Assembly (NCBI RefSeq): GCF_003627075.1
Contig: NZ_CP032630.1
Location: 2,852,001-2,916,000 of the forward strand
Reading direction: 5' to 3'
From: Protaetiibacter intestinalis
GTDB taxonomy: Bacteria > Actinomycetota > Actinomycetes > Actinomycetales > Microbacteriaceae
Length of the DNA: 64,000 nucleotides
The notes beneath the pieces were generated by a model. It ran no database searches, was not told where the DNA came from, and saw only the letters and a list, made by a program, of their open reading frames with translations. Below are positions 2,360 to 15,523 of this stretch, piece after piece; position 1 is the stretch's first letter; every line of letters starts with the position of its first letter. The translations under genes were made by a program, and so were the position numbers.

Positions 2360-3118
2360 TTACGCCGTCTCGGACGGTTCCGCGCCACGCCGGATCGACC
2401 AGGCGCTGCGGATGAGCAGCCAGGTCACCCAGAGCAGGATCGCGTAGGGCGGCACACCGAGCAGGAGTTTCATGGTCGCGAGGGCCGCCGCGTCGTCGGC
2501 GAGGTAGAGCGGCAGCTCGACGGCGAGCCGGATCGCGGGCAGGATCGCCCACAGGATCGTGGCGATGACGGCGACGCGGACCTTCGCCGCATCCGCACGC
2601 CACGCGGTGTCGCCCGTGAGCAGGCCCACCATGACGCCGATGAAGGGCCGCCGCACGGCGAGGCTCACGAGCATCACGACGACGAGCACGACGTTGATGA
2701 CGAGCCCGAGCAGGAAGTTGTCCGCCGCCCGACCGCTCCACAGGGCGAGCAGCGCCGAGATGCCGATGCCGACCGCGCCCACGATCGCCGACATGACCTG
2801 CTGCCGCGCCACGAGACGGGCCACGATGAACACCACGGCGAGCACGAGCGGGGCGAGCACCGAGGGCAGCAGCTGCCGGGTGAGGGTGTAGACGACGAGG
2901 AAGATCGTCGGCGGCAGGATCGACTCCACGAGCCCGCGCACCCCGCCGATCGCCGCGAGCAGCGCGCCCGCCGTGGGGGCCTCGCCCGGCGCGACCCGGC
3001 CGAGCGCCGAGCGGCGCGCGGCGGCGGCGAAGGCATCCGAGAACGACGGGGCCTCGGCCCCGTCCGTCCGCTCCTCGGGCGACTCCCTGGGCGTCGGGTC
3101 GGCGTCCCGCGTCGGCAT
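2360..3118 (-). CDS. DUF3159 family membrane protein
   Basis: A 252-aa protein of an actinobacteria-specific family of unknown function. The first 60 residues are hydrophilic and acidic. After them come about six hydrophobic segments, for example around IFLVVYTLTR, VLAPLVLAVVFIVARL, IVGAVGIGISALLAL and VINVVLVVVMLVSLAV, so it is an integral membrane protein. The ATG overlaps the TGA of the DUF3710 gene (ATGA), so it is translationally coupled as the last gene of dut-DUF3710-DUF3159. This order is conserved in actinobacteria such as Mycobacterium. I do not recognise a catalytic motif. Confidence 0.9.
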   Translation of the reverse strand: MPTRDADPTPRESPEERTDGAEAPSFSDAFAAAARRSALGRVAPGEAPTAGALLAAIGGVRGLVESILPPTIFLVVYTLTRQLLPSVLAPLVLAVVFIVARLVARQQVMSAIVGAVGIGISALLALWSGRAADNFLLGLVINVVLVVVMLVSLAVRRPFIGVMVGLLTGDTAWRADAAKVRVAVIATILWAILPAIRLAVELPLYLADDAAALATMKLLLGVPPYAILLWVTWLLIRSAWSIRRGAEPSETA

Positions 3119-3735
3119 CAGATCGTGGCGCCGGTGCCCGGCGCCTGCACGCTCGCGGGCACGTGCAGCGCGATGAGGTCGCGCGGCGGCATCGGGGTCG
3201 AGCCGCGCACCACGACGATGCTGCGGAACAGGTCCTCGATCTTGGCCGCCGCCTCCGGGTCGACCGCGGCCTTGCCGCTGATGACGCCGCGCAGGAACCA
3301 GCGCGGGCCGTCGACGCCGACGAAGCGCGCGATCCGCACGCCCGGCGCGTTGCCCTCGGGCACGGGGAGCTCGGCGCGCAGCTCGGGGCCGAACGGGCCG
3401 TCGACGAGCTGGGTGGTGCCGCCCTGGCGGGCGATCTGCTCCACGATCTGCGCGCGGATCTCGTGCCACAGCCCGCTCGTGCGCGGCGCCGCGAACGGCT
3501 GCACCTGCAGGGTGGACTCGGCGTAGTCGAGGGCGACCGCGACGACGCGCTTGCTGCCCTCCTCGATCTCGAGCCGCAGCGCGAGCTCGGGGCGCGGCAG
3601 GATCTTCACCCCGCCGAGGTCGACGTACGGACGCACCGAGTTCGCCTCGGCGACGTCGAGCGGGCCGGCCGTCTCACGATCGGCGGGACCGGACTTGGGG
3701 TGCTCGACGGGCACGTCCTCGGGAGCGTCGGTCAT
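3118..3735 (-). CDS. DUF3710 family protein
   Basis: A 205-aa soluble protein of a conserved actinobacterial family without assigned function. The N-terminal 35 residues are polar and probably disordered; the conserved core follows (YVDLGGVKILPRPELALRLE, then DGPRWFLRGVISG and a C-terminal IALHVPA). No membrane segment or signal peptide. It sits between dut and the DUF3159 gene, with ATGA overlaps at both ends, so the three proteins are made from one transcript. A link to nucleotide metabolism is only suggested by the dut neighbour. Confidence 0.92.
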   Translation of the reverse strand: MTDAPEDVPVEHPKSGPADRETAGPLDVAEANSVRPYVDLGGVKILPRPELALRLEIEEGSKRVVAVALDYAESTLQVQPFAAPRTSGLWHEIRAQIVEQIARQGGTTQLVDGPFGPELRAELPVPEGNAPGVRIARFVGVDGPRWFLRGVISGKAAVDPEAAAKIEDLFRSIVVVRGSTPMPPRDLIALHVPASVQAPGTGATI

Positions 3736-4184
3736 GAGGTTCCTCCTCGGGTCGAGTAGCCCGTCGAGCCGAAGCCGCCCTCGCCGCGGTCGGAACCGGG
3801 CAGCCGCTCGACGGGGATGAAGCGGGCGCGGCTCACGGGCATGACGATGAGCTGCGCGATCCGGTCGCCCGCACCGATCGTGTAGCTCTCGCGCGCGTCC
3901 GTGTTGAGCAGGGTCACGCGGATCTCGCCGCGGTACCCGGCGTCGACGGTGCCGGGGCTGTTCACGATCGTGATGCCGTGCTTCGCGGCGAGGCCGCTGC
4001 GGGGCACGACGAACGCGACGTAGCCGTCGGGGAGCGCGATCGCGGCACCCGTGCCGACCGTCGCGCGCTCGCCGGGGGCGAGCACGACGTCGTCGGTGGA
4101 GACGAGGTCGGCGCCGGCATCCCCCGGGTGCGCGTAGGCGGGCGGGATGTCGCCGCGGAACAGCACCTCGACGGTCTCGGTCAC
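3732..4184 (-). CDS. dut: dUTP diphosphatase
   Basis: Trimeric dUTPase: hydrolyses dUTP to dUMP and pyrophosphate, keeping uracil out of DNA and feeding dTMP synthesis. All five motifs are visible, including PRSGLAAKHG, GTVDAGYRGE and the C-terminal glycine-rich RGEGGFGSTG that closes over the active site. 150 aa is the normal length. The GTG start at 4184 is preferred over an upstream ATG at 4202 because a TATCGT box (4191-4196) ends exactly 6 nt before it, the leaderless pattern seen all over this window. First gene of the dut-DUF3710-DUF3159 operon, divergent from DUF3093. Confidence 0.97.
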   Translation of the reverse strand: MTETVEVLFRGDIPPAYAHPGDAGADLVSTDDVVLAPGERATVGTGAAIALPDGYVAFVVPRSGLAAKHGITIVNSPGTVDAGYRGEIRVTLLNTDARESYTIGAGDRIAQLIVMPVSRARFIPVERLPGSDRGEGGFGSTGYSTRGGTS

Positions 4185-12833: not shown

Positions 12834-13061
12834 ATGTCCCAGATCGCGAGCGAAGGCACGGTCGAGCTGGAGCGTCCCGCGCTCACCGCCTTCGACCGGT
12901 GCGACATGTGCGGCGCCCAGGCCTACGTGCGGGTGACCCTCAGCACCGGCGAGCTGCTCTTCTGCGCCCACCACGGTGCCGAGTACAAGCCGAAGCTCAT
13001 CGAGACCGCGCTCGAGTGGCACGACGAGTCCGACCGGCTCCGGGAGCCGGTCGCTGGCTGA
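12834..13061 (+). CDS. DUF7455-like small zinc-ribbon protein
   Basis: 75-aa actinobacterial protein with CDMCGAQAYV and FCAHHGAEY, a Cys2/Cys-His-His set that should bind zinc. Function unknown. GGAAGGAG lies about 6 nt before the ATG, one of the better Shine-Dalgarno sequences in the window. Similar small proteins are commonly found near sigA in actinobacteria. Its 3' end overlaps the start region of the first alanine-racemase-like gene, so it is the head of a three-gene operon. Confidence 0.85.
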   Translation: MSQIASEGTVELERPALTAFDRCDMCGAQAYVRVTLSTGELLFCAHHGAEYKPKLIETALEWHDESDRLREPVAG

Positions 13062-13755
13062 GACCCACCCGGTCGCGGCCCCCGGGCTGCACCGCCGCGC
13101 ACTCGTCGACCTCGACGCGCTGGCCGCCAACCTCGCCGGGGTCGATGACGCGTTGCTGGATGCGCGCGCCGACGCCTACGGGCATTCGCTCGCGCTCGTC
13201 GGCCCGGTCGCCCGCGAGCTCGGCTTCACGGGCGTCGTGGTGAGCGACGACGCGGATGCCGCCCGAGCCCGTGCTCTCGGCTTCCGCGACATCGTGGCCG
13301 GCCGCTCCCCCGTGGCCGAGTCGCTGACCGGACCCGAGGTGTACGGTCTCGCGCCAGGGGCCCGCCCGGTGCTGACCCTCGAGGGCGAGATCGTCGCCGT
13401 CAAGCGCGTCGGTGCCGGCGCCGGCGTCTCCTACGGCTACACCCACCGCACCGAGCGGCCGACGACGCTCGCGCTCGTCGGGCTCGGCTACGCCGACGGC
13501 GTGCCGCGACTCGCCTCCAACCGTGCCGAGGTGCTCGTCGCGGAGGGTCGGCGCCCGCTCGTGGGGCGGATCGCGATGGACCAGTTCGTGGCCTCGTGCG
13601 GCGACGACACGCCCGTGCTCGGCGCGCACGCCGTGCTGTTCGGCGACCCGGCCCACGGGGCGCCGAGCGCCCTCGAGTGGGCCGCCTGGACCGAACGCGA
13701 CCCGCTCGCGCTGACCGCGGGGCTCGGCCACCGCATCCGCCGGGAGGCGCGATGA
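13054..13755 (+). CDS. alanine-racemase-like protein keeping the C-terminal domain, PLP lysine absent
   Basis: About 233 aa, versus about 370 for Alr. The N-terminal part matches only the first strand and helix of the Alr barrel (ALVDLDALAANL). Where Alr has VVKADAYGHG this protein has DARADAYGHS, so the PLP-binding lysine is Arg38. The rest of the barrel is almost entirely missing. The C-terminal domain is well kept: GVSYGYTHRTERP, GLGYADGVPR with catalytic Tyr146, and VGRIAMDQF. There is no ATG or GTG at a sensible place; CTG at 13054 with GGGAG 7 nt upstream is my choice, and ATG 12976 would add a Ser/Arg-rich, non-protein-like stretch. It overlaps the next gene by ATGA and could only act with a partner that supplies the lysine. 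Confidence 0.8.
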   Translation: MAETHPVAAPGLHRRALVDLDALAANLAGVDDALLDARADAYGHSLALVGPVARELGFTGVVVSDDADAARARALGFRDIVAGRSPVAESLTGPEVYGLAPGARPVLTLEGEIVAVKRVGAGAGVSYGYTHRTERPTTLALVGLGYADGVPRLASNRAEVLVAEGRRPLVGRIAMDQFVASCGDDTPVLGAHAVLFGDPAHGAPSALEWAAWTERDPLALTAGLGHRIRREAR

Positions 13756-14810
13756 CGGCACGGCTCACGATCCACCTCGACGCGATCCGCCACAACGTGG
13801 CGACGCTCGCCGCGATCGCGGCTCCCTCGCGCACCCTGTTCGCCGTCAAGGCGGGCGCCTACGGTCTGGGGATGGTGCCGGTCGCCCGCGCGGGACTCGC
13901 CGCGGGTGCCGAGTGGCTCGGCACGCTCGAGGTGCCGGCCGCCCTCGAGCTGCGGGAGGCGGGCATCCGTGCGCCCCTGTTCGCCTGGCTGCACGGCGAG
14001 CACACCGACTTCCGCGCGGCGATCGAGGCCGAGGTCGACCTCGGCGTCTCCTCCCAGGCCGAGTTGCGGCGGGTCGCCGCGGCGCGCGCCGCGCTGCCCG
14101 CCCGCGTGCACCTCAAGGTCGACACGGGGCTGCACCGCAACGGAGCGAACCCCGCCGACTGGCCGGGGCTCGTGGCCGAGGCGCTCGAGCTGGTCGATGC
14201 GGGGGCGCTGCGGATCGTGGGGCTGTGGTCGCACCTGGCCGACGCGTCGCCCGAGGCGGACGCGGCGGCGCTCGCCGAGTTCCACGCGGCCGTCGCGGTC
14301 GCCGGGGCGCTCGGCGTGCCGCTCGAGGGGCCCGACCGCCCGCTGCTGCACCTCGCGGCGAGCTCCGCCGGCATCCGCGAGCCCGAGGCACGGCTCGACC
14401 TCGTGCGCTTCGGCATCGCCGCCTACGGCGTCTCCCCCTTCGACGACGTCGACGGCCCGGGCCTCGGCATGCGCGGCACCCTGAGCCTGCACGCGGCCGT
14501 CATCGAGGCGCGCGACGGCATCGCGGTGCTCGACGTGGGCTCGGCGGACGGCGTCCCGCCGTCGGTGCTCGGCCCGAGCGGCCTCGGCGCCGAGGTGCTG
14601 CTCGGCGGATCGCGCGCCCGCGTCCTCGCCGTCGGCATCGACACGCTCACGGTCGAGGCGGACGCGGCGCCCGGCGACGCGGCGATCGTCTACGGCCCGG
14701 GCGAGCTCGGCGAGCCGACCGTCGAGGACTGGGCCGCCTGGTCCGCCTCGATCGGCGACGAGATCCTGGCCCGCGCCTCGACGCGCCTGCCGCGCGAGTA
14801 CCTGGACTAG
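13752..14810 (+). CDS. alanine-racemase-like protein keeping the PLP barrel, catalytic Tyr absent
   Basis: 352-aa fold type III PLP protein. The barrel is intact: Lys33 and Tyr37 in FAVKAGAYGLG, Lys122/Arg129 in LKVDTGLHRNG, His161 in LWSHLADA, Arg219 in LDLVRFGIAAYG; the usual Asn-Ser pair reads Ser-Ser (204-205). The C-terminal domain is degenerate: GYADG reads GSADG (Ser264 for Tyr), and both SYG and MDQ motifs are gone. GGGAGG precedes the ATG, which overlaps the previous stop, so the two proteins are made together. A heterodimer would rebuild one complete active site. Alternatives are a non-racemase PLP enzyme or a regulator. Confidence 0.85.
   Translation: MTARLTIHLDAIRHNVATLAAIAAPSRTLFAVKAGAYGLGMVPVARAGLAAGAEWLGTLEVPAALELREAGIRAPLFAWLHGEHTDFRAAIEAEVDLGVSSQAELRRVAAARAALPARVHLKVDTGLHRNGANPADWPGLVAEALELVDAGALRIVGLWSHLADASPEADAAALAEFHAAVAVAGALGVPLEGPDRPLLHLAASSAGIREPEARLDLVRFGIAAYGVSPFDDVDGPGLGMRGTLSLHAAVIEARDGIAVLDVGSADGVPPSVLGPSGLGAEVLLGGSRARVLAVGIDTLTVEADAAPGDAAIVYGPGELGEPTVEDWAAWSASIGDEILARASTRLPREYLD
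14807..14810. other. shared CTAG stop of the second racemase-like gene and the CofE-like gene
   Basis: The two convergent TAG stop codons overlap completely in one palindromic CTAG. Confidence 0.95.
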
Positions 14811-15523
14811 CCGAGGCGGCGGATGATGCCGAGCGGCGTGGCCTCGTGGCCCTGCCCGCTCGGGTTGTCCTTGAGCACCCGCACCGCGAGCTTCTCCTGC
14901 TCGGGGTTCACGGTGGAGCCGAGGATGTTGCCGCCCAGGTCGTTGATGTCCACGAGCAGCACCTCGACGTCCTTGCCCTTGCCGGCCAGGAACTCCTTGA
15001 TGCGCGCGCACACCGCGTACGGTTCGGCGGCCGTCAGCACGACCATCTCGTCGAACGGCGGGATCGTCGGGTAGCCGGGGCCGTCGATGCCGCGCGCCTT
15101 CTTGCCCGCGACGCGGTAGAAGTCGCCCGTGCGACCGAACAGCTTCGAGACCACCGACACGGCGGCGGCCACCAGGATGCGGACGGTGCCGACCTCGCGG
15201 ATCGCCATCTCCATCGTCTCGGGGATGCCGAGCCCGACCCCCCACGGGGTCTTGATGACGTGCTTCGAGAGCCGCACCGCGAGGGGGCGCGCCTTCACCT
15301 CGGCGACCGGGTAGGCACGGCCCTGGGTGGCGGCGACCATCTTCTCGGTCATGAAGAACCAGTCGCCGTCCTGCAGCCGCTCGAGGCCGTACTGCTCGAC
15401 GACGGGTTCGAGCGCCTCACCCGGCAGCACCACGTGGGTCTTGATCGGGTAGCGCTCGTAGACGACGCCGTCGACCTCGTACTCGCGCGGGCGGTTGCGC
15501 TCCTCGTAGGGGCGGTGCTCCAT
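14807..15523 (-). CDS. CofE-like (coenzyme F420-0:L-glutamate ligase family) protein
   Basis: 238-aa protein related to the ligase domain that adds glutamate to F420-0. Recognisable parts are the N-terminal YPIKTHVVLPGEALEPVV, a central SVVSKLFGRTGDFYRVAG and VLLVDINDLGGNILG. True CofE substrates are F420-0, GTP and glutamate, but this short stand-alone branch is often found in organisms without F420 genes, so the substrate is uncertain. The ATG is 5 bp after the sigA stop codon and its GGAG lies over that stop, so it is probably co-transcribed with sigA. Confidence 0.75.
   Translation of the reverse strand: MEHRPYEERNRPREYEVDGVVYERYPIKTHVVLPGEALEPVVEQYGLERLQDGDWFFMTEKMVAATQGRAYPVAEVKARPLAVRLSKHVIKTPWGVGLGIPETMEMAIREVGTVRILVAAAVSVVSKLFGRTGDFYRVAGKKARGIDGPGYPTIPPFDEMVVLTAAEPYAVCARIKEFLAGKGKDVEVLLVDINDLGGNILGSTVNPEQEKLAVRVLKDNPSGQGHEATPLGIIRRLG

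Follow-up and report, generated by a model that had tools for sequence, protein, structure and literature searches.

Can two adjacent genes, each carrying only part of an alanine racemase (Alr), together encode one working enzyme? This question is raised by the window, the whole 64,000-nucleotide stretch of Protaetiibacter intestinalis contig NZ_CP032630.1 (positions 2,852,001 to 2,916,000) analysed here, which sits in a single-contig genome of 3.10 Mb and carries two overlapping Alr-like genes on its forward strand, called A and B in the following. In PMC3245724 and PMC4089486, the known Alr is described as a homodimer with two sites, in which the pyridoxal 5'-phosphate (PLP) sits on Lys39 and is held at its pyridine nitrogen by Arg219, Tyr265' serves as second base and the Met312' NH binds the substrate carboxylate. 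We found that A and B are very probably complementary degenerate Alr paralogues that form an obligate heterodimer with a single composite active site. The features on which this reading is built are given below, with counts from 72 split pairs of the family Microbacteriaceae.

13054..13755, forward strand: protein A, the C-domain donor (barrel truncated, Ala_racemase_C intact), 233 codons; start uncertain, CTG at 13054.
13165..13167, forward strand: Arg38 of A (DARADAYGHS), at the position of the PLP lysine (Lys39); no Lys here in any of the 72 A proteins.
13429..13437, forward strand: SYG motif of A, with Tyr127; Tyr in 72 of 72 A proteins.
13489..13491, forward strand: Tyr146 of A, predicted to be the catalytic Tyr265 of the partner's site; Tyr in 61 and Phe in 11 of 72 A proteins.
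13576..13584, forward strand: MDQ of A, with Met175, the Met312/Asp313 equivalents; Met in 72 of 72 A proteins.
13742..13747, forward strand: GGGAGG, a site resembling a ribosome-binding site for gene B, inside gene A and 4 nucleotides before the ATG.
13752..13755, forward strand: ATGA stop/start overlap of A with B; identical 4-nucleotide overlap in 47 of 72 split pairs.
13752..14810, forward strand: protein B, the PLP-barrel donor (Ala_racemase_N complete, Ala_racemase_C degenerate), 352 codons.
13848..13850, forward strand: Lys33 of B, the PLP lysine (Lys39); Lys in 72 of 72 B proteins.
14136..14138, forward strand: Arg129 of B, equivalent to Arg136; 72 of 72 B proteins.
14232..14234, forward strand: His161 of B, equivalent to His166; 72 of 72 B proteins.
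14406..14408, forward strand: Arg219 of B, partner of the PLP pyridine nitrogen; 72 of 72 B proteins.
14541..14543, forward strand: Ser264 of B (DVGSADG), at the catalytic Tyr265 position of Alr; Ser in 10 of 72 B proteins.
12834..13061, forward strand: DUF7455 gene, a conserved neighbour outside the enzyme, given for context only.

In the window, protein B has all of its barrel residues (Lys33, Tyr37, Arg129, His161 and Arg219) and lacks both SYG and MDQ, while the barrel of A is about one-third of full length (77 versus 216 aligned barrel residues). Pfam comparisons gave A 107.4 bits for Ala_racemase_C (PF00842, cut-off 25 bits) and 18.4 bits for Ala_racemase_N (PF01168), below the cut-off of 24.1 bits; B was over the cut-off for both, with 170.6 bits for Ala_racemase_N and 44.4 bits for Ala_racemase_C. 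The NCBIfam alr equivalog TIGR00492, with a cut-off of 168 bits, was reached by neither chain (85.4 for A and 144.2 for B). Such genes are named 'alanine racemase' or 'alanine racemase C-terminal domain-containing protein' in databases. The coordinates, frames and residues quoted in an earlier examination of the letters of this DNA (the sequence-only reading) were all found at the places it gave, as were the ATGA overlap at 13752..13755 and the GGGAGG site at 13742-13747. Its extent for A held for the frame, 13054-13755, and is unsure for the start: the codon at 13054 is CTG, not ATG, GTG or TTG, with GGGAG upstream of it, and the alternative starts are CTG at 13156, where the database protein P0003 (199 amino acids) begins, or GTG at 12976.

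Ordinary Alr gives both halves of a site from one chain, which the residues of neither A nor B allow. By the site rule of Alr, A with A and B with B have no complete site, and A with B has exactly one. In the proposed enzyme, PLP would be carried on Lys33 within the barrel of B, as in a fold-type III PLP enzyme, and the C-terminal domain of A would close the mouth of that barrel, giving Tyr146, the SYG tyrosine and the MDQ loop. The symmetry-related second site would be dead, with A lacking the PLP barrel and B lacking the closing loops. The likeliest reaction is amino-acid racemisation, for which alanine is the first, though unproven, candidate substrate in the species of the window. We infer the binding of A to B, their stoichiometry, activity and substrate, and the reach of the SYG Tyr, Tyr265' and Met312' of A into the B barrel, from the sequences, which support the heterodimer claim well.

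To see how far this arrangement extends, relatives were sought with A and with B in 398 genomes of the family, and the loci were then fetched. Among these relatives were 109 distinct adjacent pairs, 72 of them split (A without the lysine; 25 genus labels) and 37 full tandem alr pairs. Left out of these numbers were duplicate loci of one genome, L018/L063 (frame breaks), L032, L076 and L156 (contig ends), the fusions L093 and L157, L101 and L106 (another type of pair) and L041. As multiple alignment, A2 was adopted after a placement test; alignment A1, which to judge by its consensus seemed to put A rows on the B half, was dropped. Lys39, Tyr43, Arg136, His166, Ser204 and Arg219 were all kept by B in 72/72 split pairs. 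The A proteins kept the SYG Tyr and Met312 in 72/72 and had Tyr (61) or Phe (11) at position 265, and their lysine position held Arg (59), Ala (5), Ser (2), Asp (2) or a gap (4) and never Lys. Conversely, the SYG Tyr was found in 0/72 B proteins, the column being a gap (69), Gly (2) or Ala (1), and Met312 in 0/70 of those that extend to the position, since two (L091 and L165) end at contig ends before it. Position 265 of B was more mixed, with 30 Tyr, 21 Phe, 10 Ser and 11 other residues. Some B-type relatives, unlike the B of the window, were over the TIGR00492 cut-off.

This partition of residues is far beyond chance and recurs in every tabulated split pair, so far as aligned residues can tell, and the split pair is a conserved system of Microbacteriaceae. 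The sequence-only reading had suggested looking in the family for pairs with the same swaps. The loss of the lysine in A was borne out, and the Tyr/Ser swap in B was not: Ser264, taken there as the defining loss of B, was dropped as its key loss, since only 10/72 B proteins have Ser and 30/72 keep Tyr. The constant losses of B are the SYG Tyr (72/72) and Met312 (70/70 reaching the position). Either protein occurring without the other had been named as an outcome that would speak against pairing, and none was seen in the fetched loci. Of 30 loci from the A search, 27 were A-type and B adjoined all 27 (L018 with frame breaks, L032 at a contig end); of 30 from the B search, 29 had the upstream gene, and the thirtieth (L076) is cut off by the contig end but still shows part of A. 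With gene starts picked by script, the 4-nucleotide overlap was present in 47/72 pairs, and an overlap or a spacing of at most 30 nucleotides in 69/72. Nine more pairs of genus label g85 (L202-L210), found by profile search and outside the 72, show the same pattern by eye. An order-wide search of 347 genomes gave, among the matches listed, full-length A-type proteins only in the family of the window, and the two widest matches outside it (L211 and L212) were one-piece Alr on reading.

The surroundings of the split pairs are conserved as well. The locus order is a gyrB-family gene, DUF7455, A, B, an F420-ligase-like gene and sigA. Among 46 split loci with flanks, the gyrB-family gene was present in 44, DUF7455 in 38 and sigA in 33, and at least one of the three in 46/46, in either orientation; none of the three was found at 33 full tandem loci. 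The neighbouring genes included none recognisable as part of a pathway, and the context gave no lead on function. Both genes are under purifying selection in close relatives, with ratios of nonsynonymous to synonymous substitution rates (dN/dS) of 0.08-0.20 in the three or four closest comparisons in each of the genus labels g56, g73, g77 and g76; other distant comparisons reached up to 0.5.

Natural fusions of A and B also exist (L093 and L157). An A-B fusion was predicted as one compact unit, with a predicted template modelling score (pTM) of 0.89, which lends indirect support to pairing of A with B; a fold search with it matched mainly the B half (303-663) and barely covered the A half. In Pseudoclavibacter, Gulosibacter and relatives, one chain holds in order a barrel, a degenerate C-domain, a truncated barrel and an intact C-domain. 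The fused set comprised 35 proteins of 595-746 amino acids out of 120 listed. All 35 had the five barrel residues in half 1 and SYG/Tyr265/Asp/MDQ in half 2; half 2 had Ser, Thr or Gly at the lysine position in 35/35, and half 1 never had Tyr265. The model of the fused protein P0243 had a predicted local distance difference test score (pLDDT) of 92.2 and a pTM of 0.93. The fused form of genome G234 is located before tsaE. In trees that took in 12 of the 35 fused proteins, their second half fell within the A clade; FastTree supports were modest, and the C-domain alignment had 134 columns.

A second split was found in g77, where Ala_racemase_C matched exactly four times in 7/7 split-type genomes (G238, G343, G278, G077, G140, G192 and G313); two of the matches are strong and two weak, which makes two split pairs. 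In the five genomes read, the second pair has the reverse order, with the barrel gene first: gene 1 keeps the Lys, lacks SYG and has Ser for Met312, and gene 2 has Thr at the lysine position with SYG and MDQ present. Gene 1 is over the alr equivalog cut-off, and automatic annotation would therefore call it complete. In G343 this pair immediately precedes tsaE, a place taken in the genome of the window by a complete alr, and G369, also of g77, has kept a complete tandem. The second gene of the g77 pair joins the second gene of the G369 tandem in the tree (support 0.956), and the first gene joins the first genes of tandems (0.99). Because both genes are placed with tandem genes, the alr-tsaE pair of g77 looks like an independent split.

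Whether such enzymes stand alone was considered in 54 genomes examined with PF00842, 43 of them also with TIGR00492; G353, a 79% complete assembly, was left out of the count. An unbroken one-piece Alr was not found in 11/54, namely the seven g77 genomes, G234, G309, G365 (where one frame with both a strong and a weak match points to a fusion) and G377. Proteins over the alr cut-off were present in 43/43 genomes tested, so that the missing one-piece Alr rests on absent motifs and not on the model; where read, the proteins passing the model in the genomes said to lack a one-piece Alr were without SYG and Met312. In 12 genomes tested, including 10 of the 11, the D-amino-acid aminotransferase TIGR01121 was over cut-off in 0/12 and a D-Ala-D-Ala-ligase domain in 12/12. 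D-alanine needs a source, which makes split or fused enzymes the best candidates in the 11 genomes; there a composite enzyme probably supplies D-alanine.

It is likely that the essential Alr homodimer became an obligate heterodimer repeatedly in Microbacteriaceae: as an ancient pair by sigA, to which the pair of the window belongs, as the alr-tsaE pair of one genus, in which split enzymes would be the sole Alr, and as the single chain of Pseudoclavibacter/Gulosibacter with one live site; in P. endophyticus both gene orders appear fused, and a one-piece Alr was not found there. For the window, the heterodimer with one complete site proposed by the sequence-only reading remains the best fit, given the complementarity in 72/72 pairs, the overlaps, the fusions, the purifying selection and the recurrence at a second locus.

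Several observations weigh against this reading. Two complete alr genes lie elsewhere in the host genome, at 848 kb beside tsaE and at 555 kb near a D-Ala-D-Ala-ligase domain, as a check suggested with the sequence-only reading brought out; the pair A/B is therefore extra there, and D-alanine can be explained without it. While the pair is present in 5/9 genomes of the genus label of the window, g1 (one of them, G361, with frame breaks), searches with A and B found no pair in the other 4/9, with matches only in the range of ordinary alr. Tyr265 is replaced by Phe in 11/72 A proteins, a change that speaks against the usual two-base mechanism of racemisation in the species concerned, and B still has Tyr at 265 in 30/72 and Tyr or Phe in 51/72. 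The dN/dS values in the genus of the window are higher, at 0.38-0.46 for A and 0.29-0.33 for B (four comparisons, dS about 0.7-0.8). In the barrel tree, intact B copies of tandems nest among the B barrels of split pairs, so that either the losses occurred several times in parallel or B was completed again. The universal passing of the alr model noted above and weak aminotransferase-family matches in 11/12 genomes count on the same side, and the housekeeping Alr is a possible partner for A as well as for B. As a separate observation, the 555-kb Alr (G000:C1:554559-555629 and 556067-556579, L198) is more divergent, with Phe at the Tyr43 position, and with the nearby D-Ala-D-Ala-ligase domain it may form a separate cluster.

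Of the alternatives, the one that survives best keeps the one-site heterodimer and changes its chemistry, with another amino acid as substrate, for example a D-diamino acid of type-B peptidoglycan, or another PLP reaction. A literature search on the peptidoglycan idea found nothing. Such a change is a serious possibility, if a little short of an even one. In its favour, the genome has two complete alr genes besides the pair, both chains fall short of the NCBIfam alr model (85.4 and 144.2 bits, cut-off 168) and some lineages have Phe265; against it, the neighbourhood holds no recognised pathway gene, and the second split system, at the housekeeping alr-tsaE locus, resembles alanine racemase.

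Far less probable is that A and B do not pair at all, A being a regulatory or activating pseudo-subunit of the housekeeping Alr and B a separate PLP homodimer with altered chemistry. The one-piece Alr in most of the 54 genomes, Tyr or Phe at the own position 265 of 51/72 B proteins and Phe265 in 11/72 A proteins are consistent with this. Yet the two genes overlap and are sometimes fused together, no complete Alr was found in g77 as a partner for A, and the SYG Tyr and Met312 that a B homodimer would require are gone from B. That an alr tandem is eroding and has left A and B as its remains is highly improbable. Essential residues are missing in both, both genes of the relative L018/L063 (G361, an 89% complete assembly) have frame breaks, which may be sequencing errors or a real loss, and dN/dS is about 0.3-0.46 in the window's own genus, but decay was rejected, in agreement with the sequence-only reading, on the dN/dS of 0.08-0.20 among close relatives in four other genera, with identical residues kept and lost in 72/72 pairs and a conserved locus in 46/46.

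The split arrangement is a real, conserved and recurrent way to build a fold-type III PLP enzyme, and an apparently undescribed one. In agreement with the earlier statement that no such system was known, a full-text literature search, with most subscription journals outside its coverage, found no report of a split or heterodimeric alanine racemase. In canonical Alr (TIGR00492; PF01168 + PF00842) the homodimer has two sites, whereas in A/B one site has its residues spread over two polypeptides and the second site is lost. The barrel and C-domain of a laboratory fragmentary alanine racemase were reportedly expressed as separate chains, as in A/B; that was an artificial cut of one gene, whereas A/B are diverged paralogues with complementary losses. 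Antizyme inhibitor sequesters antizyme and does not complete an active site, in which it differs from A/B. With ornithine decarboxylase it provides, like A/B, fold-type III relatives with a non-catalytic paralogue (PMC5518511). Closest in principle is the trypanosomatid deoxyhypusine synthase, an impaired enzyme raised about 3000-fold by a dead paralogue, with both genes essential; it is unrelated and eukaryotic, and its inactive subunit is described as activating the impaired one, with no reciprocal split into lysine barrel and tyrosine domain (PMC3663545).

Alanine racemase is a classic homodimer and an antibacterial target. A single family that naturally shows tandem, split and fused states makes an old question directly testable: by what ratchet a homodimer with shared sites turns into an obligate heteromer after duplication. 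If the heterodimer reading is true, neither 'alanine racemase' half is active alone, and the names need correcting.

Minor observations concern neighbours and relatives. The gene at 14810-15520 on the reverse strand, convergent with B, has a weak F420-0:gamma-glutamyl ligase match over the cut-off (33 versus 25 bits), and this neighbour was found by tblastn in 11/103 loci. All nine first genes of the g35 full tandems (L110, L113-L115, L117, L118, L120, L122 and L136) have Phe265 with Lys39 kept. Some second-gene relatives from Clavibacter and Subtercola carry a TsaE domain (P0194 and P0163). Locus L201 (G057:C1:446500-453500) has at about 2721-3669, forward strand, a lone Alr-like barrel; its 316-codon frame gave no match to a C-domain, and inspection by eye showed Ser in place of the lysine. 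Finally, L196 (G073:C9) holds at 2689-3856, forward strand, a divergent one-piece racemase with MN in place of MD at 312/313, and its genome (g73) also holds a split pair and a fused enzyme.
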